In this document: piece by piece, positions 851 to 59,820 of the stretch
How the letters are laid out: each line of letters opens with the position of its first letter
How positions within the stretch are numbered: position 1 is the stretch's first letter
Source of the DNA: Hydractinia symbiolongicarpus
Lineage: Eukaryota; Cnidaria; Hydrozoa; Anthoathecata; Hydractiniidae
DNA length: 64,000 nucleotides
Direction of reading: 5' to 3'
NCBI RefSeq assembly: GCF_029227915.1
Contig: NC_079881.1
Location: 12,563,501 to 12,627,500 of the forward strand
The notes under the pieces: model-generated
Seen by the model: the letters and a program-made list of their open reading frames with translations, nothing else
Databases searched by the model: none
What the model was told of the DNA's origin: nothing
Made by a program: the position numbers and the translations under genes

Positions 851-873
851 CAAGTGCTCCCGAGAGGCAAGGA

Positions 874-2118
874 GTGCTTCAAAAAAAGCCCTCTCCTGTA
901 AATAGAAAATGTCGGATATGTAATGTACATAGTTTAAAATTATATCGTTGTTCCAAATGCAAATCTAATGTTTTTTATTGTTCGCGAAAAGGCCAAAAGA
1001 AGGATACTTCTCATAAAAACATTTGTTCCGCAATCGAGGATTTTACTAATTTGGAGCGTGATAAAAAGTTTAAAAACTTTACAGTTGCTGATAACCAGAC
1101 ATTGCCGTCAAAGTTTAATTCGAGACTAATAAAGCTTATTGGACGCAAACCGATCATAAACTGCCGGTTAAATGACCGGACATGCAAAGCATTGTGGGAC
1201 ACCGGGTCTATGATTAGTTTGGTTGACCGCATCTGGCTTTCCACGCATGCCCCTGGCATAGAGCCAACACCGATTTCTGAATTCGCCGATGTGGAACAAA
1301 AAAACTTATCGCTCAAAGCCGCGAACAACACTGAAGTTGCTATTTGTGGGGTCGCGCCATTGTCGTTTCGCGTTTCAGACGCTATTGTATTTACTGTACC
1401 ATTTCTCGTGACCCCGGGACCAATCGAACAACCCGTAATCGGATTTAACATAATTGAACATATCGTTTTAAATTTTCCAGAGTTAGATGTATCATCTCTA
1501 CTGACAGATGTTCTACCGAGCTTGAATGAGTGCAATGTACAGTCAATGATTAAGATTATCCAGGACAACAAGGATTCAGAAGACTTTTTGGAAAACGTCA
1601 AAGTTAGGAATCGCACGGTAATTCCTGCTAGGCATCGGATTGCAGTGTCATGCAAAACTCGTCTTATGGTGGATGAAAAGGAAAGAAGTGTTTTGTTAGA
1701 GCCCATGGAAAACGGTGACTTTGACGAAGAAATAAAGATTCGAGAAACATTGTTGAGACTAAAACGCGGAAAATCGCCAATTGTGTCAATCTACATCGAA
1801 AACCCAACTAGTCGAGACATCATTCTTCGAAAGGGCACCGTTATTGGTACCATAAAGTCCTTTTCGGCAGCTATACCACTACAACCCGATCAAAAGACCC
1901 CTGGGACGACGACTAAAATCAAAACCCATTCTGTATTAACTAAGACTTCCGATAATTGGCTCCCAGACGTGAATCTATCGCATCTGCCGCAGGCCCAAAA
2001 GGTTCGCGTAGAAGCAATGTTACGTGAAGTAAACACAGTATTTTCGAGATCAGAAAGCGATATTGGGAGAATCGATGATTTTAAATTGAACATAAGACTG
2101 AAGGATGAGACCCCGTAA
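874..2118 (+). CDS. MYND-like finger plus retropepsin-type protease, N-terminal part of Ty3/gypsy pol
   Basis: The frame opens just after gag and ends at a TAA at 2116-2118. No good ATG is visible at its head (a GTG lies at 874), so it may be reached by recoding from gag. Residues 13-51 have MYND-type spacing: C13, C16, C26, C29, C36, then G where C40 is expected, H47 and C51. Residues 109-111 are DTG, the aspartic-protease active site, within a hydrophobic context followed by a protease-like fold region to about residue 200. The last 40 residues look like the lead-in to RT. The stop is produced by a frameshift: RT-like sequence continues in another frame at once. The protease would cleave Gag-Pol; the role of the finger is unknown. 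Confidence 0.8.
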   Translation: MLQKKPSPVNRKCRICNVHSLKLYRCSKCKSNVFYCSRKGQKKDTSHKNICSAIEDFTNLERDKKFKNFTVADNQTLPSKFNSRLIKLIGRKPIINCRLNDRTCKALWDTGSMISLVDRIWLSTHAPGIEPTPISEFADVEQKNLSLKAANNTEVAICGVAPLSFRVSDAIVFTVPFLVTPGPIEQPVIGFNIIEHIVLNFPELDVSSLLTDVLPSLNECNVQSMIKIIQDNKDSEDFLENVKVRNRTVIPARHRIAVSCKTRLMVDEKERSVLLEPMENGDFDEEIKIRETLLRLKRGKSPIVSIYIENPTSRDIILRKGTVIGTIKSFSAAIPLQPDQKTPGTTTKIKTHSVLTKTSDNWLPDVNLSHLPQAQKVRVEAMLREVNTVFSRSESDIGRIDDFKLNIRLKDETP

Positions 2119-2236
2119 GTAAACCATATCGATCGATACCTCGAAACCTTTACTCAGAAGTAAAGGACTATGTGGATAATCTCTTGCTGAATGGCTGGAT
2201 TAAAAAATCATATTCTTCATACTGCAGCCCTATAGT

Positions 2237-5200
2237 GTGCGTGCGAAAAAAAGACGTTTGCGCCTCTGCATTGATTATCGCGATCTAAACAGAAAAACTA
2301 TTCCTGATAAGCAACCCATTCCCCGCGTACAGGATATCTTGGACGGTTTGGGCGGGCAATCGTGGTTTACAACACTGGACATGGCGAAAGCCTACCACCA
2401 AGGATTCATCGACGAATCTTCGCGCCACTTGACCGCTTTTGCAACCCCTTGGGCATTATATGAATGGTTGAGAATGCCTTTTGGCTTAACAAATGCGCCG
2501 CCTGTATTTCAGAGATATATGAACGAATGTTTATCTGGGCTCCGTGACCTAATTTGTTCAGTCTATTTAGATGACATCTTGTGCTATGGAAAAACATTTG
2601 AAGAACACTTGAAAAATGTCAAGACCGTATTGTTACGACTGCAAGAAAAAGGTATCAAGATTAAAGCTTCAAAGTGTAATTTCTTTCAGCGTAAAGTGAA
2701 ATATCTTGGGCGCATTATCAGTGAGGAGGGATATCACGCAGACCCTGAGATGGTAAGAGATATAGATCATTTCAGAAAACCGCCTACCACTATCAGTGAG
2801 CTTAGAAGTCTGTTAGGCTTTTTAGGCTACTACAGGACATTTGTACGAGATTTTTCCAAGTTAATGAAGCCGATTTATGATCTATTGAAAGGACATGGAC
2901 AGACAAAGAATTCGAAGTTAAAAATCAATTGGTTAGAATCACATCAAAAAATCTTGGATGAGATCATTCAAAAATTGCAGTCACCTGAAGTAATAGCCTT
3001 TCCAGATTATAATAAACCCTTCATTGTACATTGTGATGCTTCGCAAAAAGGACTGGGAGCTGTATTATACCAAAATCAAGGAGGCAAACTAAAGGTCATC
3101 AATTACGCCTCTCGAACGCTAACGAACGCAGAACAAAACTATCATCTTCATAGCGGTAAACTCGAGTTTCTAGCCTTGAAGTGGTCCATAACCGAAAGAT
3201 TCGCTGACTACTTGGGATATGGCCCACCCTTTGAAATATTCACAGACAACAACCCCCTAACATACATCATGACCACTGCAAAATTAAATGCAACAGGTTT
3301 GAGATGGGTGGCAGATCTTTCAAATTATCAATTTACAATAAGGTATAGACCAGGCAAATTACAACAAGACTGTGACTACCTTTCACGAAATCCTTCACAG
3401 ATATCCAATCTCATTCATGCATGCACAAAATCTATTCACTCAGACGAAATTGCTTCTATGATTTCAGCAGCAAAAGATCATCATAAATTACTGGAGATGG
3501 GAGAACAGGCTCTGGTGGAGATCAATTATCTTGGTATACATTCCTCAGTAATCGATGAAAAGGACTTGATTGCTGAACAACGACTGGATCCTGTAATTCG
3601 ACCTGTTTTCGAAGCAGTGCTGTCTGGCGTAAAACCGTCTAGAAATCAAAAGCATCATCATAAAACAAAGATACTGCTGAGACAATTCGATAAATTGGAC
3701 ATCAAAAACAACATCCTTATTCGAAATAGCAATAAATACGGAAATCAAATTGTCTTACCGAAAAAGTTTCATGCCACTGTGTATGAAGAGCTTCACGGAA
3801 AAATGGCGCATCTTGGAGTGGAAAAAGTGGTTGAATTAGCTCGTCAACGCTTTTACTGGCCCAGACTGGAACGTGACATCACATTCTTCATTCGGAATCG
3901 TTGTCGTTGCCTGAAAGACAAAAAACCAAACCGAGAGGACAAAGCACCTTTAGTTCCTATCCAGTCGACACGACCCTTTGAGATTGTATCGCTAGACTAT
4001 CTACACTTGGACAAATGCAAAGGAGGTTTTGAATATGTTTTGGTAGTGTGTGATCACTTTACACGCTTTACTCAGGCATATGCTACAAAAAACAAGTCTG
4101 GACGCAGTGCTGCAGAAAAAATCTTTAATGACCTGGTAATGAAGTATGGATTTCCAACAAGACTTCATCACGACAGAGGAAAAGAATTTAACAACACGCT
4201 ATTTAAGAGATTGAACGAGCTGTCTGGGATCAAGTCATCAAAAACAACCCCATATCATCCTATGGGTGATGGAATGGTGGAAAGGATGAATAGGACATTC
4301 ATAAACATGCTAAAGACTCTACCATCAAAGTTCAAAAACAATTGGAAGCAAGAACTACCAAAATTAGCTTTTGCCTATAATAGCACTATATCAAAGTCTA
4401 CTGGGTACTCACCGTTCTATTTAATGTTCGGACGTCATTCAAGACTACCAATTGATTCAATGTTCGGCTTAGATAACATCCAGAAAGGTAAAACTCATGC
4501 AGCCTTCGTGCAAGAGTGGAAAGAATCCCTGGCTGCAGCAACAAAAATTGCTTCAAAGAGTGCTATGGACGGAAAACATCAATACGACAAGAAAGTTCGA
4601 GGTTTGGAGTTGAAAGAAGGAGACAGAGTACTGGTGCGAAATCTAAGTGAGCGAGGCGGCACTGGTAAACTTCGTTCCCATTGGGAAGCAGATGTACATG
4701 TGGTTCTACGAAAAGTAGAGGACCTACCTGTGTACGTGATCAGAAGAGAAAGTGGTAAGGGAGAGCCCAGATCCTTGCATCGTAACCTCATGTTAAAATG
4801 TGATTTCTTACCATTAGAGTTATCAGAGAACCTGAGTAGAACACCAAAGACTGCTGATCCAGAGATCGATGAAGAAATTGACTGTCATAAGAGAGCTGAA
4901 GACCGTCAAGAAATTGCCAACTTAGACAACACTGCTCTTGTTGAAGGGGAGAGTAGTGCATATGACACAAATTGTGCAGATGTTGCTGATGTGGATGTTC
5001 CTGTTGAAGAGGATGATGACTCCATTGACAGAGATGCTGCTGTTCCTGCTTTAAGTATTGCAGATGATGTTGATGATGTAAATCCTGAGGTCCCTGAGAC
5101 TTCTGACCTCCCCAAGGAACCAGATGCAGACAATGATGCAGCAGATGAAACTATCCCATATCAGGTTGATGAAGTTTGGATGAGTGGAGAAAAGTCTACA

Positions 5201-5293
5201 AAACCTGAGGACACAACAGCACAACACAAACAAAATGAAATCCGAAGTTCAGGTCGAAATCGAAGACCTCCTCGGCGATTGACTTATGATTAA
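2237..5293 (+). CDS. pol: Ty3/gypsy Pol: reverse transcriptase, RNase H, integrase; N-terminal end frameshifted
   Basis: This 1018-codon frame has no true start (first codon GTG). The RT N-terminus lies in another frame at about 2119-2260, so two frameshifts separate it from the protease frame. Domains by residue of this frame: RT about 8-215 with catalytic YLDD at 110-113; RNase H about 260-385 with D267, E310 and D337; integrase with H520/H525 and C556/C558 of the zinc domain (CxC instead of the usual CxxC), then D587, D646 and E682, i.e. D,D-35-E. A GPY/F-like module follows at about 790-860, then an acidic tail ending in a basic RRPPRRL motif. It would copy the element's RNA and integrate the DNA. 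Family assignment is secure; activity of this copy is doubtful. Confidence 0.92.
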   Translation: MRAKKRRLRLCIDYRDLNRKTIPDKQPIPRVQDILDGLGGQSWFTTLDMAKAYHQGFIDESSRHLTAFATPWALYEWLRMPFGLTNAPPVFQRYMNECLSGLRDLICSVYLDDILCYGKTFEEHLKNVKTVLLRLQEKGIKIKASKCNFFQRKVKYLGRIISEEGYHADPEMVRDIDHFRKPPTTISELRSLLGFLGYYRTFVRDFSKLMKPIYDLLKGHGQTKNSKLKINWLESHQKILDEIIQKLQSPEVIAFPDYNKPFIVHCDASQKGLGAVLYQNQGGKLKVINYASRTLTNAEQNYHLHSGKLEFLALKWSITERFADYLGYGPPFEIFTDNNPLTYIMTTAKLNATGLRWVADLSNYQFTIRYRPGKLQQDCDYLSRNPSQISNLIHACTKSIHSDEIASMISAAKDHHKLLEMGEQALVEINYLGIHSSVIDEKDLIAEQRLDPVIRPVFEAVLSGVKPSRNQKHHHKTKILLRQFDKLDIKNNILIRNSNKYGNQIVLPKKFHATVYEELHGKMAHLGVEKVVELARQRFYWPRLERDITFFIRNRCRCLKDKKPNREDKAPLVPIQSTRPFEIVSLDYLHLDKCKGGFEYVLVVCDHFTRFTQAYATKNKSGRSAAEKIFNDLVMKYGFPTRLHHDRGKEFNNTLFKRLNELSGIKSSKTTPYHPMGDGMVERMNRTFINMLKTLPSKFKNNWKQELPKLAFAYNSTISKSTGYSPFYLMFGRHSRLPIDSMFGLDNIQKGKTHAAFVQEWKESLAAATKIASKSAMDGKHQYDKKVRGLELKEGDRVLVRNLSERGGTGKLRSHWEADVHVVLRKVEDLPVYVIRRESGKGEPRSLHRNLMLKCDFLPLELSENLSRTPKTADPEIDEEIDCHKRAEDRQEIANLDNTALVEGESSAYDTNCADVADVDVPVEEDDDSIDRDAAVPALSIADDVDDVNPEVPETSDLPKEPDADNDAADETIPYQVDEVWMSGEKSTKPEDTTAQHKQNEIRSSGRNRRPPRRLTYD

Positions 5294-5981
5294 ACGTATG
5301 TATGTATTACTGTATATAATGTTGTGTTGCAATCTATATGCTTAGAAGACTGCAAAAAGTTCTGCATGGGACACGATAAACAAGAAATGCTGATGTATAG
5401 AAGCAAAGTAATAACATGATGAACAACGAAAAAGACATGAAGAGGCATAAGAAGCATCAGGAAGAATCAATCCGTAGTTTGGGTGGAAGATTATGTTGTG
5501 GTGCTTAAAGCTAGCTGGGGAGGCTAAGTATTAATTAAATTATGAAATTTGTATGGCAAAGAAGTGCCCTGCACTGGATATGGCAGGCTGATCACTTGTC
5601 AACAGACATCCAACTGTTGCAGATGTTGCTGAAATTAATTTTGAAATTATTGTTCAGCACAATTTCTAATGATTTTTTTCTTATCTACATAAAAGATTCT
5701 CCTCCTCGAAAAAGAAAATCGACGATTTCAAAGTTCGACGAGCCTACGAGTGGCCACGATTCCATCAACCAGACAAAATGCAACAAGCAAGAAGTCCATG
5801 TCAAGCAACGACTAACTCGAACCCTACTACGAAGTAATAAATTACACGTAAAAAGGCTGACTTCTAACTAAGCAATGTGTTATATGAAGCAACAACGAAA
5901 AAGTGATAACTGAGAACGAATTCTCAAGATATACTTTGCTCCGACAAAACGTACAGAACCTTTAAAAAAAGCAGGGGCGAG
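5294..5981 (+). other. Ty3/gypsy 3' internal noncoding region and polypurine tract
   Basis: Between the pol stop and the LTR. A 109-codon frame (5542-5871) has no recognisable motif and is probably chance. The last 19 bases (about 5963-5981) are almost all purine, with runs of A and G, and directly abut the LTR, as expected for the plus-strand primer of an LTR retrotransposon. Confidence 0.6.
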
Positions 5982-6280
5982 TGTGAGATATATTAGTTGT
6001 AAAACCTTGTTCCTCTTTCTTGTAGCTGGATACCATTTTGTTTTGGGTTAAGTCTACACCAGTTGAGTCTGGTACCCAGCTTTCCCCAGTTTTCTATCAA
6101 GTGCATTTTAGTATACTGTGCCTAATTTAGCTCACATCAGGGAGGCTAGGCCCAAGTAAGGAAACCTATAAGTAGAGGCACAGTAGGCAGTGCAGGTTGG
6201 TTGGTTGTAACAAAAAAATGTGTGCTAAGAAAGTATAGATGACAAGAAAGTAGTCTTTTATATGGACACACCCTCTAACA
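5982..6280 (+). repeat. 3' LTR of the Ty3/gypsy element (299 bp)
   Basis: It starts TGTGAGA directly after the polypurine tract and ends TCTAACA, so the ends are short imperfect inverted repeats bounded by TG...CA. A TATA-like CCTATAAGTAG lies at about 6167-6177 within a promoter-like stretch. The 5' LTR is outside the window, so the boundaries cannot be confirmed by comparison. Confidence 0.75.
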
Positions 6281-8610
6281 CATATAAAGTTTCACATAAA
6301 GAACGTAAAATAAGTGTTTTCTTATATTTAACTCGACCATCGTTATAATGCAGCATCAGCAGCAGATCAGAATTACAAACTTTGACAAGCAAATCTACAG
6401 TGCAATTTTTCTGATAATATTCTTCATGAACTTTATGAAAAGGGCTGTGTACTTTTGTACTAAGATAAAAAGTCCTTTATTAATTGCTATTTTGTTTTGT
6501 ACACAAATATTCAAAAAACATTTTTATAAATTTGAATCCTAAATCGAACATTTTTTCTTATATATTTTGGCCTATGGACTACATTGTGTTACATTGTGTA
6601 ACAAGCAAAACAATTTGCTCCATAAAAAACCTGACATACGAGCTTAAGTTGTATGTGTGTCGTAACTTACATAAATGAGGTTATGAATAAAAATTCTCCC
6701 TGATGTGCACAAAAACATGTGAATATAGCTTTAAAAAAGCATCAAGTATACTGTACATATTTACTCTATTATCCAGTTTCCCTGTTTTTCAAGTAATCCT
6801 GCCTTTTTTTGCCATGGATTGTAAAAAATATTTTCAAAATTAGCATACACTATCTGTGGAAGAAATTTTTGTGGAACTTTTTTTTGCAGAACTTTGGGCC
6901 AAATCTGTAAAAATGTTCCACAGAAATTTTAGAAATCAGTCAAACATCGGTTCTGAAAAATTATTCCGCAAAATTTTCCATTTCAGCTAGCCGCAACAAT
7001 TAAAAATTTTTTTATTTCTTCATACTTTGATTTCTTTAGGATCTAAGTTATTGGGTTCTATGTTGCTCATTTGTAAATGCCCTTACTTCTGAATACTATG
7101 TTAGACAAAATACTGATTTTGCCTCTGCTGAAATAATTGAACTTTAGGCACCCAAAAATTAATATTGCACATTTCGCATATATATATTCTGCAAATTGAA
7201 GCATTTTTGTGTACCACTCACCCACAAAAATAAGTTTTAGGAAAATTTATTGTGCAAATAATTTGTACCCTTGGCAAGTTTAGGCTCTTGCAACAAGTTT
7301 GAATGCATATTGAAATTGAAAAAAAAAAGTTATAAAGGTATTGCTTATAGCCTATAAAAAGATTTGAGGTAGGTGTTTATACTTCTTATGCTTCATATTT
7401 CCAAACTTTGTTAAAAAATTCCTAAGTTTTGCTAAAAACAATACTACACTCAGGTTTTTTACCCCAAAATAATTCAACATATCCGGCCTATATATCCTGT
7501 AATATAGGATTCCTGCTAAACCCACCTTTATTTGTAGGTTAAAACACTAATCCAGTGGTGAAGTAATAATAGACTAGAGTAAATATGGTATTCTTGGTCA
7601 CTGTTGAATATAACATTTTAGGGATGCTTTTAGGCAAGTTTAGGAACTTTCAAAAAAATTAAATATTTATAAAACTTCCAAAATTTGTCTTTGAACACGC
7701 AGGTATTCTTTTTGGAAAGACAGACATCACAAATACTTGGCGTTTCACAGTATCACCTGATTTTTTTTATTAAAACTTCATAAAATGGTGTAATATTTTA
7801 TTTTATCTTGCATTTATACCTGTCATCTTTAAATATATAGGGCACAGAACAATATCACATTAATGTGCTAAGATTATTTTGAGTTCTTCATATATGTTTT
7901 TTTAGTATTTTTCTTTCTTTTTTAGGTCAGCCATAATCTAACACAGCCATTATCAGCATTTCCAAAAAAATGTTGACAGAGTAAACTGCAAACATTAATT
8001 TGTGAAAAATGAATCACTAAAACTAATATATATTTATATAATTTATTATAGTCTTATTTTGGTTAATAGTATTTACTTCATATTATTTTTAAGGGAAACT
8101 AGACGTCTATGGTTCTTCTATGATTTTACAAAATTTGTATCATGAAAATTTTTAGAACTTTCTAGGTAGATCCCAAGTTTTTATACTTTTTCTAACTGTG
8201 TGTAAATCTGTATATTTTTGTTATTTATTCAGGTGTAATTAAATTGAAGTATATCTAAATTGCGTTATTTGTCGCCCATATTTAATACTTTTCAGACCAG
8301 GTTACTTTAACCCCTTTTTTATATAAAAACAATGTTATAAGAACATGAACCTTAGACTCACAATCCCAGACTCAAATCATTGTTTTTACAACTAAAACTA
8401 CTCAAGAAATGGAATAGTCAAAAAGCCTCAAAAAGCGGTTAAGTCACATAGTTTTGCGCAATTATTCAATCATTTATCCTGTTTTTAAATTGGAAATCTC
8501 AGCCTTGGGTCGACCATTGGACGTTTTGCTCTGTGGAAAGTTTCTCTTGACAAGGCGGAAATCTTCAGGCCTTGAGGCTTCTTGTTTTCTTTTAAAAGCA
8601 ACACGTTTGT
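6281..8610. other. AT-rich intergenic DNA, no gene seen
   Basis: Low-complexity AT-rich sequence with short A and T runs. The short open frames here (for example 6348-6542) have no recognisable features. I see no RNA gene or element boundary. Confidence 0.5.
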
Positions 8611-46952: not shown

Positions 46953-47803
46953 TTAACGTCCGTTTTCCATGCTAGCATGGGTTGGACGGGGTATATTAAT
47001 GACCCTCTTCCAATCTGATCTAGACTGTGTTAGATCTAAACTCAACTTTCTCTGTATCAAGTCCGTCCTTATAACCTCCTGCCAATTCTTTCTCGGTCTG
47101 CCTCTGGGCTTTGCCCCAGGAACTATCAAGTCTCTACACTTTCTTACCCAATTATCCTCCTCCATTCTTTCCAAGTGCCCCAGCCAATTCAGTCTTCTTA
47201 TCTGGATAACATCTTTAATTCTACAGAGACTTAGCCTGCTTCTTAGCTCATCTGAACTCGTTCTTTCTCTCAGACTGCGTTACACATCCACCTAACCATT
47301 CTCATATCATTCCTTTCTAAACGATCAAGATCTTCCTGCTTCACTGCCCATGTCTCACTACCGTACAACATAACACTTCTTACACAGGCCTCATACAACC
47401 TACCTTTTACCTCAATTAACAGGACTCCGCTAGTCAACAAAGGAAGTAACTCTCTGAACTTTTTCCAAGCAGAACCTATCCTCCAAGTAACACTTCTTCC
47501 AACACCCCCTTCACTGCCCAACATATCACCTAAGTAACAGAAGTTCTCAACTATCTCTAACGAGCCACTGTTGTACATCATTAAAGCTGGAAATACTTCA
47601 TTCTCTATAATCTCACCTTTGCAACACTTGCATACAAACTGAATGTCAGCTCTTAACCTTCCACTTATACTACTACACTTCTTATGTACCAAATGCTTGC
47701 AAGTCTGACAAAAAATTGAGTTACTACCAAACCCTTTCCTGCAAACTCCACAAGGCCACTTTCCAACTACAAGGTCACACTTGGCTGCAATGCTACTAAT
47801 CAT
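46953..47803 (-). pseudogene. LINE C-terminal region with PHD-like finger, broken
   Basis: Frame 47803-47270 carries CGVCRKGFGSNSIFCQTCK then HKKCSSI and CKCC, a C4-H-C3 PHD/RING-like pattern, then the YLGDMLGSEGG and YGSETWAVKQ blocks usual for RTE-type C-termini. A one-base change near 47275 ends the frame (the 59.4 kb copy continues). The final block 47174-46953 has KPRGRPRKNWQEV, an AT-hook-like basic motif, and a stop before the (ATG)n tail. Confidence 0.82.
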
Positions 47804-47877
47804 GACTTAAGACTTTGCTGTGTTTACCTTTAGCCCTTTCTCTTCTAGTCCTTTCTTCCACTTCTCAAACTTTTCAA

Positions 47878-48613
47878 CTAATTCTTCCATCGACTCTGAA
47901 TGAACTCTGCTATGAGAACCAAATCATCTGCATACAATAACTCCCATGGACAACCTGTTCTGAACTCCATCGACAGCGCTTCTAAGACTAGAATAAACAA
48001 CAAAGGACTAAGTACAGAACCCTGATGTACACCAACATTTACACTAAATTCATCACTAAGTGAATTGATAATCCTGACACGACTTCTAGCATTGCTGTAC
48101 ATAGTTACTAGCCACTCATCCACACCTAATTTTCTCATAGCCCACCAAATAACTTTACGTGGCACTCTATCAAAAGCTTTCTCTAAATGTACAAAGGCAA
48201 AATAGAGATTCTTTCTCTTTCCTAAATACTTTTCCTGAAGCTGTCTGAGTAAAAATATTGCATCTGTAGTGCCACGCCCTGGAACAAAACCAAATTGCAT
48301 CTTATCTATATCAATTCTTTCTCTAAGTAACTTATCAATCACTCTTTCAATAACTTTCATTAATCAACCAACTTCAAACCTCTATAGTTACCCCTTTCTA
48401 ATGCATCACCCTTGCCCTTGAAACAATTCACTAACTCGACTGCCACTCACTCGGAATAGCACCATCCTTTATAATCTGGTTAGCAAGACTTGTAATAAGC
48501 TCAACTCCGATATATCCAGATGCTTTTACCATCTCTGCAACAATACCTGATACTCCTGCAGCCTTGCCAATCTTCAATTTCCTAATAGCCTCCACTACCC
48601 ATTCTGTCTTGAT
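47878..48613 (-). pseudogene. LINE reverse transcriptase domain, broken
   Basis: From 48613 down: EAIRKLKIGKAAGVSG (early RT motif), a stop near 48430 with a frameshift to GNYRGLKLVD and a stop at about 48360. The frame 48360-47878 follows with FGFVPGRGTTDAIF, EKAFDRVPR (motif A), HQGSVLSPLLF (motif B) and LLYADDLVLIAE (catalytic YADD). Just after this, about 11 extra bases relative to the copy at 58.8 kb shift the frame and end it. Confidence 0.85.
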
Positions 48614-49897
48614 CTACATAGCTGGCCTTTCTACAACATCATCATCAGACTTATCCTCGTCACAATCAAACTCAGTGTTAAGCAACCTCTGATAATGATT
48701 CTTCCAAGCTACCCTTTTCTCCTCCTCTGTGCTAACCAAAACACCTTCATCATTACGTATACACTTCTCACCTACAACATCTTGATTAGTCTTTTTCATT
48801 TGCTTTGCTATCTTGAATACCTCATTGCGTTGGTCTTCCCTTCTTAACACATCTGCAAATTTGTTTCTCTCTGCTTCTGATTCTGCCTTATACACTGCTG
48901 TACGAGCGCGACGCTTAGCTTCTAAGTAAATATTTTTACTACCACCTGACTTCCACTCTTTCCAAAGTTTCCTCTTTTCCTTTATACACTGGTCAACCTC
49001 ATTATTCCACCACCAGGTCTGTCTATGTCTAGCTGGTTCTTTCGTCCACCCACAGGTATCATCAGAAGCTTCTAGAAGACAATTCTTCAAAGTAGTCCAA
49101 GTACTTTCAACATTGTCACTATCACATTGACCATTGTGGGCTAACTGCTGAACTTTTGCACTAAATTGTCTTGCTACAATCTCTTCCTTCAGCTTCCAGA
49201 CTTTTCGACGGAGCCTGTACTTTCCCTTGGCTTCTTTAACACTCTTCAAGATAATCTCACAAACCAGCAACCTATGCTGGGAAACACACTCTTCCCCCGA
49301 TATAACTATCACGTCCTTCACCACTTTCCTGTCTGACTTTCTAACCAGGAAGTAATCTATCTGTGTCTTACAACCACCTGACTCATATGTTATCAGCCTA
49401 CTCTGTCTCTTGCTGAATGATGTGTTGCAAACCACCATGTCCGTTGCCATTCCAAACTCAAGCAATCTCTCCCCTTCCTTATTTCTGCTCCCAAATCCAT
49501 AGTCTCCATGCACACCTCTATAACCTTCAGATGACTTCCCAACATGACCATTAAAGTCGCCGCCCACCATGACAAGTTCAGTGTCTTCAAACTTTGATGT
49601 GACTGCTATTAACTCATCATAAAACTTATCTTTATCTTCCTCACTGAGTCCACACTGTGGAGCATAAACTGACAGAAAAGTGACAATCCTATTACCTATC
49701 AAAAACTTTATCACTATGATACGACTATTAACATGCATAACATCTATTACTTTTTCTACCCACTTCTCTGCAACGAATATGCCAACTCCTCCATATCCAT
49801 CACTATTACCAATCCAAAAAAGCTTATACCTTGCCCTCCTTATTATTTGAATTGTGGATAGAATTTGCATCAATTTACAAGACAAAATTCGTATCAA
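48614..49897 (-). pseudogene. LINE ORF, APE-type endonuclease domain and RT linker
   Basis: Frame of 427 codons without a proper start. GYGGVGIFVAEKW, then VYAPQCG, GGDFNGHVG, CNTSF, IDYFLVR and the final SQHRLL motif (where the usual H is near the C-terminal end) define an apurinic-like endonuclease. Such enzymes nick the target for reverse transcription. A Trp/Lys-rich region (WWNNEVDQCIKEKRKLWKEW) leads to the RT. It ends in a TAG at 48614-48616 before the RT. Confidence 0.85.
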
Positions 49898-52033
49898 GGA
49901 ATTCAGAATGCTAATGTAAATGTGTAATTTAGCTATTGTTTAAAAATACAGGTTATTAATAATAATTGTAAATTTAATTTTGAAATTCAGGACATTTAAA
50001 AATTTGCTCATGTTTTTTGACTTTAAGACCCATACTTTAAATAGTGGACTGAAATTGATTTTATAAATAGCTGTCTGTTTTGATTATTCATTTTTTATTA
50101 TAATTGATTAGCTTTGACAATTTGACCAAATTGGCCTCGAGGTTCAATTTATCCGTAAGTGCCTATAAGATAGATCATTTAAAAAATATAACGAGAAAGA
50201 AAAATTCGTCTCGATTTAAGAAAAATATATATACTTTTTTGGTATAATTCTGGATGTTGATTTCAACCTGATTTGACAAAAAAAGACATGTTTACACTGA
50301 TGTTTTCACTGAATAACTTGCAAAAAACAGACCTGCAAAAGGTCCGTGCTAAAACATTTTACAGTGCTGAAATACGTAAATTAGCGAATGCTTCTGGGAC
50401 TCCAATCGTATGTCAAGCTTCGTTCACCTATTTATCCAAGGAGGTAAATATTCTGTATGGCAACTAATAAGAATGCTTTGCAGAGAGTTTTTGTGAAATA
50501 AACTTTTATTTGACCTACAAGATTGTGCTAGGATAACAACACATGCTTGTTCACATTCGTGTTTGCCAATAATTTACCTGAAGGCTTCTGAGCAGATATC
50601 CGAGCAATTAGAGGCTATAATGAAAAAAAGATAAATTTAGATGTAAAGTACATATACAGCTTAATGTTTTAAAGGTAGGAAGCTTTACAGAAGATTCTTA
50701 AGTTATTAACTTAATGATAACTTAATAATAAGTTTATTGTGTTAAATAATAATATATATTTCTTGTTCAGAAAAATTTAATGCATCTCAGTTGTGTAAGA
50801 CTGGGCAGAAAAAGCATGAACTTTATCAATGTGCATAAATGGTTTTGTTCTTGACTTGACTGTTTTTTGTTAGTACATTTGGTGAAACACGACGTGTGAT
50901 TACAAACCAACTGGTGTTACTTGTGATTGTTTGCAAATGTTGTCTTTTCTTAATACAGGTAAGTTTATAATTGAAAAGTAAAAGGATGAATACGCACAAT
51001 CTCGCCACTATCACCGTGTCTTGTACCACTGAAACAAAAATGCGAACATTTAAAATACATATTGCAAATGTTTACGTAAAGTATCAAAAATTTAATAACA
51101 ACATTATGGAGATTTAGAATCATTAGGGTTAAATTCCCAGGCTACTTGTCCAAACACTCATTCATATTTGAAATAAAAAAGATAAGTCCAGATTAAATAA
51201 GGAAGAAATACAAAGTTCACACTGAAAATATGTAACACATTAATAAGGAAATTTAAGGGAACTTAAAACTGTGTCTGTCCCTTCCATAATTAACTGGCAG
51301 GCATAAAAATAAGGAGTCCCAAAAACATTCAGAGTTTACCAGTAATAGTCTTATATACCTTGGACATAAATTGAGTAGCTTGATAAACTACCTGACCGTA
51401 TAATATGCACTCATTCCCTGCCGTTTTTAGGCCATAAACAACTTAAAAGAAAAGGATAAATCACAGAAACTGAAACAAATATTCTTGCCTTCAATTTCTG
51501 TAAGTAGAAAAAGTTATTACCCATAACAAGAAGAAGACTTGCTCAAGCATTTTTAAATGTCACTCAGGTTTTTAAATGATACAGGAAGCAAAGAAATTTG
51601 ACTAATTTTTAACATCTGCAATTGAGATTGAATCTATTTTATAAATACCCATATACGTCTGTCTGTCTGTATGTCAGTCACGCAAAATGGTAATGACAGT
51701 ACAGAAACACACAAAATGCTGTAAAATTTATCCACAAACCACCGACTAGTTCTGAAATATTATACTTTAAAAAACTTAACATATTGCAAGTTTTGCAAAT
51801 TACTTTCTAGAATAATGCACAAAATGGCCATCTTAATAAAATATAAATATTTTTTACCTTGCAGCATTATTAAATGAAAATGGGGCTTCTACCATTTTAA
51901 TCTTTCCAGTGTCTGCCTCACTAACCATTGGAAGTAGCATGTAAAAGAGCACTAAAATATAACTAGTGAGGTTTTATCTTACTTAAAGTTAATTGAATAA
52001 AGATGTAAAAAAGGGTATTTAAACCTACATTTT
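49898..52033. other. No recognised gene
   Basis: A 64-codon plus frame at 50273-50467 (KVRAKTFYSAEIRKL, QASFTYLSKE) ends next to AGGAG-GTAAAT, a fair splice donor, so it could be an exon; I do not recognise it. CGTCTGTCTGTCTGTATGTC near 51656 resembles the CTGTCTGTCTC end motif of the 10.7 kb repeat. Confidence 0.3.
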
Positions 52034-52063
52034 TAAAACAAAAATTTATTTCAGATCATATTA

Positions 52064-52092
52064 CAGTGCCGATCGCGAGTAAAGCTACACAT
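52064..52092 (+). repeat. Left terminal inverted repeat of the Tc1/BEN element
   Basis: 29 bases identical to the complement of 56326-56354, beginning CAGTGCCGATCGCG. Imperfect similarity continues about 20 bases more (GAGAGTAAGAGTA against GAGAGTACGAGTG). Confidence 0.93.
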
Positions 52093-52290
52093 TTTCGAGA
52101 GTAAGAGTACAAAAATAAAACAGTGAGAGTGCGAGTAATTCACTCCCGAGTACAACGCGAGTACAACTAAAATGATATTACTCGCATTTTTGTTAATCAT
52201 ACTCTCAATGATTAATTATATTTTTACTCGCAAGTGTACTCACATAAGTACAGTTTTTAAAGTCAAAGTAATACGCGCGTGAACACATTT

Positions 52291-52536
52291 AATTTTTTTG
52301 CGAGAGATATTAAATTGTAAACGTTAAAAAAATCAAGTTAAAAAAATTAAACTTTTTTTGCGAGAGATAATAAATTGTAAACTTTAAAAAAATTAGGTTA
52401 AAAAAATTAAACTTTTTTTGCGAGAGATATTAAATTGTAAACTTTAAAAAAAATTAAGTTAAAAAAATTAAACTTTTCTTGCGAGAGATATTATATTGTA
52501 AACTTTAAAAAAATTAAGTTAAAAAAATTAAACTTT
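52291..52536. repeat. Four-copy 60-bp tandem repeat in the left end of the Tc1/BEN element
   Basis: GCGAGAGATAtTAAATTGTAAAC recurs with 60-61 base spacing (CGAGAGATA at 52301, 52361, 52421, 52482), each followed by A/T runs and AAGTTAAAAAAATTAAAC. Confidence 0.88.
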
Positions 52537-52836
52537 AATTTTAAATAGTGAAAAAGACTGTGTTGTTTAGAAAGTAAAACAAATTTATTGTGGCATAAAA
52601 AAACTGAGAGTAAGAGATTACATGTTTTTTTTTAATTTTTTTTTTGCCTATTAATAAAAAGTCTGTGCCCAGAACTACGTTTCAATATCATCAAAAACAT
52701 TGAGGATAAAAAGAGAAAAAACAAACAACAACAAAAGTATAGTAAAAAATGTATTAGTTGTTAAAATGAAAGTATATATACAAATAACTTTTACCGTTCA
52801 GTTTGAATGTTCAGTTTTATTACATAAAGTAGTTTT

Positions 52837-53763
52837 TTAAAAACCAGATGCCTTTCCGTTTCTTTCAATGACTTTCGGAATTACCTTGCGTAAGTGTGAA
52901 ATATACTTTCGGCATTTTTCTGGCGTCACAGCCGACCATATTTCCGAAATTGCATTTACCAATTCTTCTTTCGTGTGCGGTTTATAATCATTTCGAATTT
53001 TTTCCTTCATTTCATGCCAAAAGTTTTCTATAGGGTTCATGTCTGGTGATTCAGGCGGGGTTTTCCACCAGTTTATTTGATTTTCCTGCATCACTTGCGA
53101 CGCTTTCAAACTGCTGTGTTTGGGGTCGTTATCTTGCATAAACCTATGCCCATCTGGAAATACATCGGAAATAAACGGTTTCAACGTATTTTTTAAAATT
53201 TCTTCAGAGTAGAACTCTTTGTCCATTATGCCGTGAAAAATTAAAATTGGAGATGCGCCACGTTTTGATATGCATCCCCAAACGTTAAGTTTAAAAGGAT
53301 GTTTTGGTTTTCCTTTTAATTTTGCTGGCTCCCACCAGCGATGAAAAGATACCTTTCCGTTCCAGTCCATTTGAATGCAACTCTCGTCTGTCCATAAAAC
53401 ATTGCCGAAATCATCTTCCATTGCTTGTACTTTTTTAGCGAAGATAAGCCTTTTTTGACGATTTACTTCCCTTACAAGTTGACAGTACTTTGTCCCAGTG
53501 GAGTACCAACCGAGACCACGTCTTAATCTTTTGATTTTACTTGTAGAAAAGCTAACATTAAATTGCTGAAGCAAAAGTTGTCCAAGCTTGTTAGCAGTGA
53601 GTTCGTCGTTTTTCTCCATGCAGGTGTCGATAAAATCGAGAATGGGGTTTGTAACATTTATTGGTGACTTCGGTTTCCTTGGAAGATTTGCGATAGAATG
53701 ATGCTTGGCCCACTTTTGAAAAAGACGATATATCGCTGACCTTCCAACATTATAACATTTCAT
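52837..53763 (-). CDS. Tc1/mariner-type DD34E transposase
   Basis: 308-codon uninterrupted frame. The N-terminal 90 residues have helix-turn-helix character (VGRSAIYRLFQKW; LGQLLLQQFNVSFSTSKIKRLRRGLGW). Catalytic residues are D126 (WTDES), D211 (MQDNDPKH) and E246 (SPDMNPIENFW), with exactly 34 residues between the last two, i.e. DD34E. It should cut at the inverted ends and insert at TA. It is about 30 residues shorter than typical Tc1 transposases at the N-terminus; a TGA stands directly before the ATG, so part of the first DNA-binding helix group may be lost or in another exon. AATAAA lies on this strand at 52816-52821, just after the stop. It is divergent from the BEN gene. Confidence 0.93.
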   Translation of the reverse strand: MKCYNVGRSAIYRLFQKWAKHHSIANLPRKPKSPINVTNPILDFIDTCMEKNDELTANKLGQLLLQQFNVSFSTSKIKRLRRGLGWYSTGTKYCQLVREVNRQKRLIFAKKVQAMEDDFGNVLWTDESCIQMDWNGKVSFHRWWEPAKLKGKPKHPFKLNVWGCISKRGASPILIFHGIMDKEFYSEEILKNTLKPFISDVFPDGHRFMQDNDPKHSSLKASQVMQENQINWWKTPPESPDMNPIENFWHEMKEKIRNDYKPHTKEELVNAISEIWSAVTPEKCRKYISHLRKVIPKVIERNGKASGF

Positions 53764-54120
53764 TCATCATTTAATAACCTTTGTTTTTGTACTCCCGAGT
53801 ATAGTAAGAGTATAAAACAAAGCAGGTAATTAAATTTCTATTATAATGACTTGTTTTTGCACTCCCGAGTACAATGAGAGTAGGAAATAAAAAAAAGCCG
53901 AACATTTCATTCATCATTTAATAACCTTTGTTTTTGTACTCCCGAGTATAGTTAGAGTGAGAAATAAAAAAGCTGAAAATCAAATTCCTTATTTAATGAC
54001 TCTGTTTTTGCACTCCCGAGTACAATGAGAGTAAGAAATGAAAAAAGCCGAAAACTAGCTATAAAAGAGTTTGCTTCTTTAGGAATTCATTTTAAGTGTC
54101 TTCATTTATCTGAGTTCACT
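53764..54120. promoter_or_regulatory. Shared divergent upstream region with four ACTCCCGAGTA motifs
   Basis: Lies between the transposase start and the BEN gene start. ACTCCCGAGTA occurs at 53791, 53861, 53938 and 54012, each preceded by TTTTTGY and followed by a GAGAGTA/TAGAGTG block. Spacing is 70-77 bases, forming a roughly 150-base unit present twice. TACTC and GAGTA are palindromic arms around CC. A fifth exact copy is at 52142 in the left end. Likely a bidirectional promoter; binding by an element protein is inferred. Confidence 0.6.
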
Positions 54121-55651
54121 ATGGCATCATCATTTTTCAGTCAAACAAGAGTTAAAACATACAAATATGCATGCGTCTTCTTCGATGAAGATAAATGTAT
54201 TGGTTCTGTCAAAACTAAAGATATTGTAAATAGGGAAGAAAAGTTACTGAGCGTTGACGACAATGTATTTGTGCGATGGGGTAGCGGAAAGAATGTACAA
54301 AATCACAAAGCTACAATTTTATTTCTAAACAGTAAGTATAGTTTTGTAAACGACCTAAAGAAAAACAGAGGCTAAGTTAAATTTTTACTGTTAGTAATAA
54401 TGATTTTTTTCTTTCTTTTTAGATGAATGGTCAAATTGCACACAGTTTGAAAGAGATTGGTTGAACAACGAGAAAACATTTATCATCGAAGAGGTCGGAG
54501 AAAAAAAAAAAGAAGAAAAAATAAAAAACATTAAAAACAATAAAAAACGGACAACAGGCGAAACATTAGTAAAACCTCAGAAGAAGTTCGTCAAAAAGGA
54601 TGTTAGTTTATAAAAAATTTGTCGTAAGAATCAGCACAGAAATTTTATTCTTTATCTAATTTATGTATTATAAACTTCTTTTTAGAGTGCAGCTGTTGAT
54701 AAAAGACAACCTTCATTAGTAGAAATAAATTACAAAGTCCCACAACTAAATTACCAAGTTGATTTTAGTGATGTTTTACGAGAACCGCGGAAGGCACAAA
54801 ATGGTAAAGTAGAAAACACCGCCGAAGAACCGCCAAAGGATAAAGTGGAAAACACCGCCGAAGAAACGCCGAAGACGCAAAACGATGAAGTTGAAAACAC
54901 ATTCTCCTTTCTAAAGTTATTGGTTTCACCTGGAAAACCACTGCCATCATTTTCGCCACCTACTTCGACACTATCCACTTCTATTCTTCCCGACCTACCT
55001 TTTTCTCCGCCTTCACCAGCCAGACCTCTGCAATCAACACCTGCCGTTAGAACAACACTTTTTCCGAATTATCCCGAGCAAACAAAGCAGTGCACGTGCG
55101 ATTGTGCTGCTATGCGACAAATCATTGAAAGACTAGAAAAGCGACTAGCTGCGTTGGAAGGGAATGCAATTGCCTTATCCGCAAACTTTATCGACGACAG
55201 TGACGAAGCATTACCTTCAGTCCAGGGGTTGTCTCCACTAAAGGCGATGCAGAGGACGAATATTGATGATGACGATTTTCAAATAAATGAAAGATTAAAT
55301 AGAAAAAAATACAAGGTGGACACAGCTCCTACTATAGAAATTCCGACCGAATTCTGGCCGATAGCCAATGAAGTGAGACAAGGGGCGACATCTTTCAAAA
55401 ACTTTAGCTATCTGTTGCTGGCTAAATTATTTGACCACAAGGAGCTTGTAGGAAGAAATTGTCGAGGAGTTAAAAAACCTGCGATTGATGGCTACAAACA
55501 AGATATTGTTAAAGCTTTTTGTTGGAAGTTTTATCCAACCAACATGGCTGCACCGGGTGCATGGAGGGACTGTCAACGTGCAATTGATGAATTTATACGA
55601 CGTAGCAACAGAACAAAGAAAAATTATAAATCATGCATGTTGCAGTCATAA
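54121..55651 (+). CDS. BEN-domain protein of the Tc1/mariner element (three exons)
   Basis: Exons 54121-54331, 54423-54601 and 54686-55651 join in phase through introns of 91 and 84 bases (GTAAGT...TTTTTAG and GTTAGT...TTTTTAG), giving 451 residues. I prefer the ATG at 54121 (MASSFFSQ) to the one at 54025, since the latter lies within the promoter repeat. Residues 1-90 hold a compact domain (YKYACVFFDED, VFVRWGSGKN) like the N-terminal part of several BEN proteins. Basic Lys-rich exon 2; duplicated KVENTAEE repeat (about 171-195); Pro/Ser-rich linker; a cysteine cluster CTCDC and coiled coil (about 266-290); BEN domain at about 350-440 (LLLAKLFDHKEL, IDGYKQDIVKAF, WRDCQRAIDEFIRR). BEN domains bind DNA or chromatin proteins; a role in binding this element's motifs is inferred. 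Confidence 0.85.
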
Positions 55652-56325
55652 AACTCTTTCAGTTAATAACTTTTTTGTAAATATTTTTTTAGATGTAAAT
55701 ATTTTTTATTTTTAGATTTTTTTAAAAAAATATATCATTAAACATTAAACTGTTTTTTTTTATAAAAAAAATCCCTCACGTTATTTTGTTGCTTCGATCT
55801 TTAAACATCCCAACAAAAACAAAAAGATAACAAGCTTAGTGACGTCCTGTTTCTACGGCGATATTTTAAAATTATACAGATTGTTGTCTGAGTTATAAAG
55901 CAATGTTTGTTGAAAAATATTCAGAAAGCAAAGTCTGCATGTGGCAATTGATCACCATAACTATAATTAGATATCATTCTGACTCTGTGTTTGCGAAAGA
56001 ACATGCTGGAAGTGATTTCACATAACGAAAGTAGCGAAAGCATTTAAAGAAGAGACACAAAAGTTGAACTTAAAAATTTATTTTTTAATTATAAACTAAA
56101 TTAAAAAAAAATTAAATGGTGAATTAAAATTAATGTCTTATGTTTTTCTTTAATATAACTCGCGAGTAACATGATATATTTTTTTAAAGATTTACTCGCG
56201 GGTAGTTTAATTATTGCGTACTCGCGTTATTAAAAAGATTACTCTCGTTTATTTTACTCGCACTCGCATTGTACTCTCACTCTGAACTATTTTACTCGCA
56301 TTTATTTGCACTCGTACTCTCAAAG
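55652..56325. other. Right subterminal region of the Tc1/BEN element
   Basis: AT-rich, with a cluster of GCGAGTA/TACTCGC motifs from about 56158 to 56325, including ACTCGCGAGT at about 56159-56168. No gene. Confidence 0.6.
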
Positions 56326-56354
56326 ATGTGTAGCTTTACTCGCGATCGGCACTG
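56326..56354 (-). repeat. Right terminal inverted repeat of the Tc1/BEN element
   Basis: Exact complement of 52064-52092, ending CGATCGGCACTG, then TA. Confidence 0.93.
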
Positions 56355-56356
56355 TA

Positions 56357-56804
56357 TATTCGACTAAAATATAAAAATATATAAAAATAAGCTTTTCGTA
56401 GCATATCACTACACATCATCAGGTAAAATGAATTACCAAAAAACTGTATATTATGATAATATGCACTAAAAGTTAAAAACGTGTCCAAAAAACTAATTAA
56501 GTCTTTTTTTTCATAAATTATGTATAACCTTTTAAACACAATCTGTTCATTCAGAACTGGTTTCAAAGATCTAATAGAAAATGCTTTAAGTATCTTTCGT
56601 TTAAAGCAATTAATAGGAGCGTTAGTTAACACTTTCCAAACAAAGGAGTGTCCATCATTAATTGTGATGTGCTGAGCAGGCTCAGACATTTTATCGTGTT
56701 CAGACCATCTTATATTTGCATTTTGTATTGTCACACCGATGTAATTTGCACCACATGAACAGGTGCCTTTGTAAATCACACATGATCTGTGTTGAACTTT
56801 ATCC
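56357..56804 (-). pseudogene. PLE C-terminal GIY-YIG endonuclease region
   Basis: Minus frame from about 56779: VIYKGTCSCGANYIGVT, then IRWSEHDKM and HSFVWKVL, FKRKILKAFSIRS and LNEQI. The arrangement IY-...CSCGANYIG-...-R-...H fits the GIY-YIG nuclease found at the C-terminus of Penelope and related elements, which nicks target DNA. The reading frame upstream continues beyond the MITE at 57244. The tail after LNEQI is 3' noncoding. Confidence 0.8.
56391..56423 (-). ncRNA. Hammerhead-ribozyme-like core in the PLE 3' region (weak)
   Basis: Minus strand reads ACCTGATGA, three bases, then GTAG-loop-CTAC followed by GAAA. CTGATGA-stem II-GAAA is the hammerhead core, and such ribozymes are known from PLEs. 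The three extra bases before the stem and the unclear stem III and cleavage site make this weak. The second PLE copy (60222-60250) has the same stem but AAAA instead of GAAA. Confidence 0.3.
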
Positions 56805-57243
56805 TTTAAAGGTTACCTCCCGTGAAAAATCAAGTTGAGCTCATATGAAAGAGCTTGAAAGGTTTTCTAGGAATTTGAATAATTTTTTTAAAATTCTTGA
56901 TTGGTTCTTTAGAATTTGGACTAAGAAGATTCACTAATTATGCATGATATCATGAGTATGCTCTGCAAGGGTGTTAATTTAATATTTTTGAAAAGCCATA
57001 TAGAGTTAAAAATGTTTTCTGACGGGTTTTGAACATTTTACATAATTTTTTTTTATTTAATTACCATAATTATGCTCAATGCATACTCATGACGTCACAA
57101 TTTTGCATAATTATTGCTACTTTTAAGACAAATTTCTCGAGAACGGATAAAGATTTTTCAAAAAAATAAAAAGATTTCTAGACAACTTTCAAAGATCTTT
57201 TATATGAGCTCAACACGATTTTTAGCGGGAGGTAACCTTTAAA
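56805..57243. mobile_element. 439-bp MITE inserted in the PLE
   Basis: Ends TTTAAAGGTTACCTCCCG and CGGGAGGTAACCTTTAAA are inverted; similarity extends about 65 bases (GTTGAGCTCATAT in both). The likely target is TTAA or TTTAAA, as for piggyBac or Kolobok derivatives. It interrupts the PLE coding region, which resumes on each side. No coding capacity. Confidence 0.82.
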
Positions 57244-58346: not shown

Positions 58347-59820
58347 GGGTAACTATAGAGGTTTGAAGTTGGTTGATCAAGTAATGAAAGTTATTGAAAG
58401 AGTGATTGATAAGTTACTTAGAGAAAGAATTGATATAGATAAGATGCAATTTGGTTTTGTTCCAGGGCGTGGCACTACAGATGCAATATTTTTACTCAGA
58501 CAGCTTCAGGAAAAGTATTTAGGAAAGAGAAAGAATCTCTATTTTGCCTTTGTAGATTTAGAGAAAGCTTTTGATAGAGTGCCACGTAAAGTTATTTGGT
58601 GGGCTATGAGAAAATTAGGTGTGGATGAGTGGCTAGTTACGATGGTTCAGTCTATGTACAGCAATGCTAGAAGTCGTGTCAGGATTAACGATTCACTTAG
58701 TGATGAATTTAGTGTAAATGTTGGTGTACATCAGGGTTCTGTACTTAGTCCTTTGTTGTTTATTCTAGTCTTAGAAGCGCTGTCGATGGAGTTCAGAACA
58801 GGTTGCCCATGGGAGTTATTGTATGCAGATGATTTGGTTCTCATAGCAGAGTCGATGGAAGAATTAGTTGAAAAGTTTGAGAAGTGGAAGAAAGGACTAG
58901 AAGAGAAAGGGCTGAAGGTAAACACAGCAAAGTCTAAAGTCATGATAAGTAGCATTGCAGCCAAGTGTGACCTTGTAGTTGGAAAGTGGCCTTGTGGAGT
59001 TTGCAGGAAAGGGGTTGGTAGTAACTCAATTTTTTGTCAGACTTGCAAGCATTGGGTACATAAGAAGTGCAGTAGTATTAGTGGAAGGTTAAGAGCTGGC
59101 ATACAGTTTGTATGCAAGCGTTGCAAAGGTGAGATTATAGAGAATGAAGTATTTCCAGCTTTAATGATGTACAACAGTGGCTCGTTAGAGATAGTTAAGA
59201 ACTTCTGTTACTTAGGTGATATGTTGGGCAGTGAAGGGGGTGTTGGAAGAAGTGTTACTTGCAGGATAGGTTCTGCTTGGAAAAAGTTTAGAGAGTTACT
59301 TCCTTTATTGACTAGCAGAGTCCTGTCAATTGAGGTAAAAGGTAGCTTGTATGAGGCCTGTGTAAGAAGTGTTATGTTGTACGGTAGTGAGACATGGGCA
59401 GTGAAGCAGGAAGATCTTGACCGTTTAGAAAGGAATGATATGAGAATGGTTAGGTGGATGTGTAATGCCAGTCTGAGAGACAGAAAGAGTTCAGATGAGC
59501 TAAGAAGCAGGCTAAGTCTCTGTAGAATTAAAGATGTTATCCAGATAAGAAGGTTAAATTGGCTGGGGCACTTGTAAAGAATGGAGGAGAAAAATTGGGT
59601 AAGAAAGTGTAGAGACTTGATAGTTCCTGGGGCAAAGCCCAGAGGCAGACCGAGAAAGACTTGGCAGGAGGTTATAAGGACAGACTTGATAGAGAGGAAG
59701 TTGAGTTTAGATCTAACACAGTCTAGATCAGATTGGAAGAGGGTCATTAATATACCCCGTCCAACCCATGCTAGCATGGAAAACGGACGTTAAGCCGAGA
59801 ATGATGATGATGATGATGTA
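58347..59820 (+). mobile_element. RTE-like LINE, 5'-truncated copy, plus strand
   Basis: Similarity to the LINE at 46.9-49.9 kb starts at GGGTAACTATAGAGG (58347) and ends at the ATGATGATG tail near 59818. It is inserted within the PLE (PLE coding resumes at 59821 on the minus strand). TGTAACTATAG of the flank and GGTAACTATAG of the LINE overlap at the left junction, suggesting microhomology-assisted 5' joining. Confidence 0.9.
58363..59793 (+). pseudogene. LINE reverse transcriptase plus PHD-like finger, one nonsense codon
   Basis: Open from 58363 to a TAA at 59575-59577. The other LINE copy has GAA there, so one substitution broke it; the remainder (59581-59793) is in frame and ends at the usual stop. 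Domains: RT from FGFVPGRGTTDAIF, through EKAFDRVPR, HQGSVLSPLLF and YADDLVLIAES; then CGVCRKGVGSNSIFCQTCKHW-VHKKCSSI-CKRC (PHD-like, about 58990-59125); YLGDMLGSEGG; YGSETWAVKQEDLDRLERND; RRLNWLGHL; KPRGRPRKTWQEV. The N-terminal endonuclease and early RT motifs are lost by 5' truncation. Confidence 0.88.

Follow-up and report, generated by a model that had tools for sequence, protein, structure and literature searches.

The window analyzed here is a stretch of 64,000 nucleotides (C7:12563501–12627500) from the 480.9-Mb genome of Hydractinia symbiolongicarpus, a colonial hydrozoan. Between positions 52064 and 56354, it holds a transposon with exact terminal inverted repeats (TIRs) of 29 nucleotides (nt), TA flanks, a DD34E transposase gene, and a divergently oriented gene of three exons that likely encodes a DNA-binding protein with a BEN domain. 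The inverted ends and TA flanks had been described in an earlier note on this DNA and were found at 52064–52092 and 56326–56354, with TA on both sides. Elsewhere in the window, a search with the first 21 nt of the end (up to 3 mismatches) yielded 0 matches, where 0.00 were expected by chance. The features of this copy are as follows.

52062–52063, no strand: TA left flank (target-site duplication); 15 of the 18 young copies described below combine both exact TIRs with TA on both sides
52064–52092, plus strand: left TIR, 29 nt exact; an imperfect match continues to about 52113
52064–52264, plus strand: left subterminal array, with CGAGTA at 52076, 52132, 52147, and 52158 and TACTCG at 52179 and 52225
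52300–52540, plus strand: four AT-rich tandem repeats of a 60- to 61-bp unit beginning GCGAGAGATA, starting at 52300, 52360, 52420, and 52481
52837–53763, minus strand: DD34E Tc1/mariner-type transposase open reading frame (ORF), 308 amino acids; the first 34 residues of the sister 339-amino acid ORF are missing
53764–54060, no strand: intergenic array, with ACTCCCGAGT at 53791, 53861, 53938, and 54012 (spacing of 70, 77, and 74 bp)
54121–54331, plus strand: BEN gene exon 1, about 70 amino acids
54423–54601, plus strand: BEN gene exon 2
54686–55651, plus strand: BEN gene exon 3, including the stop codon
55103–55180, plus strand: predicted long helix, residues 270–295, a possible coiled coil in a low-confidence model
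55313–55648, plus strand: C-terminal segment, residues 340–451, with the putative BEN domain (weak Pfam match at residues 372–437)
56155–56354, minus strand: right subterminal array, with CGAGTA at 56163 and TACTCG at 56193, 56219, 56255, 56293, and 56337
56326–56354, minus strand: right TIR, 29 nt exact
56355–56356, no strand: TA right flank

The transposase matches the Pfam family DDE_3 (E value of 1.4e-13), and the Sleeping Beauty transposase was the sole match in a sequence search of the PDB at E ≤0.01 (E value of 4.6e-23, residues 127–337). The earlier note had described this gene as an uninterrupted DD34E transposase. Its triad is indeed present (D126, D211, and E246, with 34 residues between the last two) and there is no internal stop, but the note overlooked a truncation, in that the protein aligns only from residue 35 of a 339-amino acid protein encoded by sister copies. 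The missing residues 1–34 form part of a putative helix-turn-helix (HTH). The transposase of one sister copy, L024, matches HTH_32 at 3.5e-05 (24.7 bits, below the 33.7 cut-off) and HTH_SB at 0.093, whereas the window protein has lost the HTH_32 match and gives 0 HTH matches at E ≤0.1. Because these residues are absent, the transposase of the window copy is probably inactive and the copy non-autonomous. The possibility that a spliced N-terminus had been missed was ruled out, since the 339-amino acid ORF runs unbroken in five sister copies. P0008, a fragment of a transposase in public data with 95% identity over 67% of the query, also has the full N-terminus. A protein search listed relatives of the transposase, all of them as sequences separated from their genomic surroundings.

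The divergent gene contains GT..AG introns, and its spliced product of 451 amino acids is 100% identical to the NCBI gene model LOC130637783 of H. symbiolongicarpus, in agreement with the three-exon structure proposed in the earlier note. A second gene model, LOC130654212, is 90% identical to the same protein. The assignment of a BEN domain, also made in that note, is not reached by the window protein by itself, which scores 13.4 bits against Pfam BEN, below the 23.2 cut-off. Instead, it relies on a fold comparison (24% identity to BEND3 BEN4 over 86 aligned residues) and on a relative elsewhere in the genome (L049:3605–4240), which exceeds the cut-off at 30.5 bits and aligns to the window protein with 38% identity over about 76 residues. 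With Foldseek alone, the first BEN domain ranked 5th with an E value above 1. The full-length model has a mean predicted local distance difference test (pLDDT) score of 38.4, and the predicted coiled coil corresponds therein to the single long helix listed above. Searches with the BEN protein against phages (tblastn), and with both the BEN protein and the transposase against viral contigs, gave nothing informative.

Young copies, older copies, and a second family

The left 301 bp of the element was used as a genome query, and 40 of the 121 candidates were scored, such that all copy counts are lower bounds. At least 18 places match at 100% over the full length, with others weaker, and the 36 stretches that were fetched comprise 17 young copies besides that in the window and 19 other loci. 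The young copies, at least 18 at separate sites, are about 0.1% divergent. Compared with the longest copy (L021, 4,790 bp), they exhibit 62 mismatches in 57,808 aligned bases, a total that includes the 4,790 bases of L021 aligned to itself, which indicates that amplification was recent. Both exact 29-nt TIRs are present in 15 of the 18, and TA is found on both sides in all 15. L018 has one mismatch in its right TIR and TA on both sides, L019 has one mismatch in its right TIR and no TA after it, and no right TIR was found for L022. The copies with both exact ends range from 1,320 to 4,790 bp and vary in their internal gaps, as expected for internal-deletion derivatives, and the young set looks like deletion products of one two-gene master. 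Self-overlapping matches reveal that other young copies likewise carry the 60- to 61-bp tandem unit near the left end.

Of the 18 young copies, 17 contain BEN sequence (all except L022), and 14 contain transposase sequence (all except L010, L011, L013, and L020). All three BEN exons are complete in six copies (window, L014, L016, L017, L018, and L024), whose exons are identical, and the 339-amino acid transposase ORF is complete in five (L012, L021, L023, L024, and L025). Only L024 retains both ORFs intact. In L021, the transposase is complete and the BEN gene has an in-frame loss of eight codons close to the beginning of exon 3. The earlier note had called for a genome check for copies carrying both genes, and had named two findings that would speak against its proposal, namely same-ended copies that consistently lack the BEN gene and a single-copy host BEN gene captured by chance. 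The young copies instead carry BEN sequence almost throughout and the gene is multi-copy, so the two-gene description of the element is well supported. An accident in which a Tc1 element landed beside or around an ordinary host BEN gene has a negligible probability, and is refuted by the multiple copies in which BEN sequence lies within the same TIRs at many chromosomal sites.

The 19 loci outside the young set (L026–L044) are mostly decayed, and their genes were sought by tblastn. One of them, L030 (85–92% DNA identity), retains the transposase and BEN residues 1–304. Another, L045 (L034 read further; 86–93%), retains the transposase and much of the BEN gene through to its end. Both contain stops, and both keep the gene order and orientation of the young copies. 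L037 has the transposase but no detectable BEN; its sequence passes directly from roughly where the BEN gene begins to that of the right end, and this is read as a deletion. L040–L044 were considered as a sister family and rejected. They represent a repeat about 1.2 kb long, of which up to 0.8 kb is shared with the right end of the element. The L040–L043 repeats are 92–95% alike, and no protein match to BEN or to the transposase was obtained for L040–L044.

A genome search with the BEN protein gave at least 85 matches, with exons counted separately (94 of 103 candidates scored), and two distant ones examined in context, L048 and L050, define a second family. In L048, ends at 2081–5375 enclose a 339-amino acid transposase ORF that is 57.8% identical to that of the first family. 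About 25 nt from it lies a BEN open frame with 47% identity over 115 amino acids, including the C-terminal tail; the first BEN exons and the promoter region seem to have been deleted. In L050, ends at 3507–7107 enclose the same gene pair, mirrored and decayed, and exon 1 ends at the corresponding place before a GTAAGT donor. That the divergent pair occurs in both families suggests that the pairing of transposase and BEN genes predates their split, and its recurrence in so distant a relative suggests some importance of the partner protein for the element.

This persistence bears on the possibility that the BEN gene is carried along as a passenger, having been taken up from the host in a single capture by an ancestral element and having had no function since. 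Consistent with such a history, 12 of the 18 young copies do not have all three exons complete, more distant BEN-like matches (26–31% identity) exist elsewhere in the genome, and ratios of nonsynonymous to synonymous substitution (dN/dS) on three old copies fall on both sides of 1 (0.41–1.30). A mere passenger is harder to reconcile with a pair that persists across two families whose transposases are 58% identical and whose BEN segments are 47% identical, or with the identity of the exons among the six complete young genes. The BEN gene also outlasts the transposase in young copies (17 versus 14 of 18), which counts for little because exon 3 is close to the right end, which deletions spare. 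On balance, we consider the passenger explanation improbable.

Motif arrays and a putative role for the BEN protein

The hexamer CGAGTA and its reverse complement TACTCG are concentrated where a regulator of the element would be expected to act. L021 contains 20 such sites, of which 12 are within 200 bp of the ends, 8 are between the genes, and 0 are elsewhere, compared with a mean of 1.2 and a maximum of 5 in 200 first-order Markov sequences. The window copy contains 16 (12 at the ends and 4 between the genes), whereas the remaining 59,709 bases of the window contain 4 against 11.8 expected. In the second family, all 13 sites of L048 and all 5 of L050 are within 200 bp of the ends, with 0 between the genes. 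The longer intergenic form, ACTCCCGAGT, occurs 8 times in L021, 4 times in the window copy, and 0 times in L024. The half-site GAGTR/YACTC, present 12 times in the first 200-bp bin of the window copy, clusters at the ends and between the genes in this copy, in L021, and in L030, the last with one additional cluster. Many array sites are near-palindromic (ACTC[C/G/T]CGAGT). The BEN domain of BANP has been reported at TCTCGCGAGA, with an array preference for TCXCG in which T is favored far over A or C at X (PMC10206803). The likeness of the arrays to this site is best regarded as a lead.

Tc1-type transposases bind within the TIR, and the motif starts inside the TIR (CGATCGCGAGTAA) in a form common to both families. 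The main competing explanation is accordingly that the CGAGTA arrays bind the transposase alone, and that the BEN protein acts elsewhere in the element's favor, for example on host chromatin or genes. Two points speak against this alternative. In L030, L021, and the window copy, an intergenic array is built from the same motif at a distance of over 1.5 kb from both ends, a position at which a regulator would be expected more readily than a transposase. The motif is also similar in form to the site reported for the BEN domain of BANP. We judge the transposase-only explanation unlikely, but to a lesser degree than the passenger explanation.

We consider it moderately probable that the copy in the window has undergone internal deletion and belongs to a two-gene DD34E transposon that was recently amplified and whose BEN protein acts on the motif arrays. 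The master, of about 4.8 kb, would encode the 339-amino acid transposase and the divergent 451-amino acid BEN-domain protein. The latter would bind the arrays (CTC[C/G/T]CGAG / CGAGTA) and could thereby act at the intergenic promoter region that the two genes share as well as at both ends of all copies, including those with deletions. Bound there, the protein might either tune transposase expression or keep copies accessible and un-silenced, and perhaps also assist in bringing the ends together, in a manner comparable to the second proteins encoded by some plant transposons. Binding, regulation, and protection by the BEN protein are predicted here from the positions of the arrays and from their likeness to the reported BANP BEN site (PMC10206803). 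A repressor of the transposase or an end-pairing helper would fit the anatomy as well as an anti-silencing factor would.

Several observations weigh against a two-gene transposon whose BEN protein acts on the arrays. The motif could instead be one that the transposase binds. A single instance of the exact BANP core (CTCGCGAG) is found in L021, one in the window copy, and one in the remainder of the window; the array form, CTCCCGAG, differs from this core by one base and is found 8, 5, and 1 times, respectively. Moreover, the comparison with BANP was made post hoc, after the motif was known, and repeats within an array share descent, such that their counts are not independent. L024, the only copy with both ORFs complete, has wholly lost the intergenic array (0 CGAGTA/TACTCG between the genes), which together with L050 indicates that the central array is not always kept. 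Among the 19 outer loci, as few as two (L030 and L034) have both genes, four have BEN alone (L027, L028, L035, and L031, the last of the L049 type), four have the transposase alone (L026, L029, L037, and L039, with L026 and L029 retaining only its last 36–41 residues), and nine have neither. The dN/dS ratios, all from old copies, are 0.52 (L034), 0.41 (L028), and 1.30 (L030, where the alignment overruns a deletion) for BEN exon 3, 1.00 (L030) and 0.66 (L034) for exon 1, and 0.81 (L030) and 0.66 (L034) for the transposase. Finally, searches for proteins homologous to the BEN protein returned the same 2 proteins, both from Hydractinia, and none outside the genus.

Other BEN matches and neighboring sequences

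Further distant or older BEN matches in the genome are at these positions.

C5:18332760, C10:16995706, C2:11758992, C11:24322306, C2:11048098, C12:17086390
C3:21599165, C6:25873166, C8:13271543, C10:22695441, C8:28310057, C14:13642249
C8:13230149, C10:26226120, C14:5605020, C10:16607618, C5:21718958, C12:7778958

At the L049 locus on C13 (3605–6315), the BEN gene introduced above ends 0.5 kb before a P-element-type transposase ORF (PF21787 at 9.8e-25 and PF21788 at 2.2e-18). A BEN stretch in L047 (5078–5931) is related to that of L049 (919 columns at 89%). BEN genes may be carried by DNA transposons of more than one kind. A broader proposal can be put forward tentatively, although we regard it as rather unlikely. 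It holds that an animal Tc1/mariner lineage evolved a true two-component system, in which the BEN protein would recognize CGAGTA / CTC[C/G]CGAG arrays at the ends and the shared promoter as an animal counterpart of plant anti-silencing factors or regulators, and, given the proximity seen at L049, that BEN genes have perhaps been spread more widely by DNA transposons.

Within the window, an ORF on the minus strand (56336–56812) touches the right end of the element, and the transposon may have inserted into it. We take this ORF to resemble the endonuclease portion at the C-terminus of a Penelope-like element; Pfam gave 0 matches for 56339–56779. Two LINE-like reverse-transcriptase ORFs, recognized by eye, flank the element in opposite orientations (47270–49939, minus strand, and 58348–59577, plus strand) and are highly alike in their overlapping part. 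Two long ORFs at 832–5293 (plus strand) look by eye like the protease, reverse transcriptase, and integrase of a long terminal repeat (LTR) retrotransposon.

Comparison with known systems

In the titles and opening portions of the abstracts retrieved on the BEN domain together with Tc1/mariner elements or transposons, no transposon-borne BEN gene is described, with Repbase and subscription journals lying outside this scope. The terms "mariner" and "BEN domain" are absent from the main text, as consulted, of the Hydractinia genome paper (PMC11067881), and the accessible part of PMC3212995 holds nothing relevant on a second ORF. Multi-gene DD34E elements as such are already known, in ciliates (PMC7325037).

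Described here is a recently amplified transposon that, in two families, retains a partner gene likely to encode a DNA-binding protein and has a motif array where such a protein would act. Element-encoded regulation and anti-silencing are best known from plants, and the element would offer a concrete setting for testing either in an animal. Direct examination of the near-identical copies and of the candidate BEN target sites is feasible, since Hydractinia is used as a laboratory animal.

Typical members of the Tc1/mariner group carry a transposase only and are usually treated as single-gene transposons. The present element is like the DD34E members of this group (IS630-Tc1) in its TA flanks, TIRs, DDE_3 domain, 34-residue spacing, and match to Sleeping Beauty. 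It differs in its master length of about 4.8 kb, in its extra divergent spliced gene, and in the motif arrays at its ends and between its genes.

The ciliate elements TBE and Tec have three ORFs and are alike in being multi-gene elements with a DD34E transposase (PMC7325037). Their extra genes are of other kinds, a small ORF and a zinc-finger protein in TBE and a site-specific recombinase in Tec, and no BEN gene is named in the portion of that report consulted (PMC7325037).

The Ben genes of bracoviruses have three exons, with a 68-amino acid N-terminal domain in exon 1 and BEN at the end of exon 3 (PMC4574769). The gene in the window has about 70 codons in exon 1 and its putative BEN domain at the end of exon 3, a likeness of gene structure. 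The bracovirus genes are viral, and their products reach 1200 amino acids (PMC4574769). BANP, NACC1, and BEND3 are BEN transcription factors encoded by host genes, unlike the element-borne BEN protein, and identity to them is low, as illustrated by the BEND3 BEN4 comparison given above.

VANDAL transposons belong to the Mutator-like superfamily, unlike Tc1/mariner elements. Those of Arabidopsis encode the anti-silencing protein VANC, whose targets are often arranged in tandem; across the whole length of the elements, VANC is reported to bring about a loss of DNA methylation, in a study with sections on chromatin immunoprecipitation sequencing (ChIP-seq) and electrophoretic mobility shift assays (EMSA) (PMC5735166). 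No homology to VANC is claimed for the BEN protein; as a model for the proposed mechanism, VANC would be its closest working analogue.

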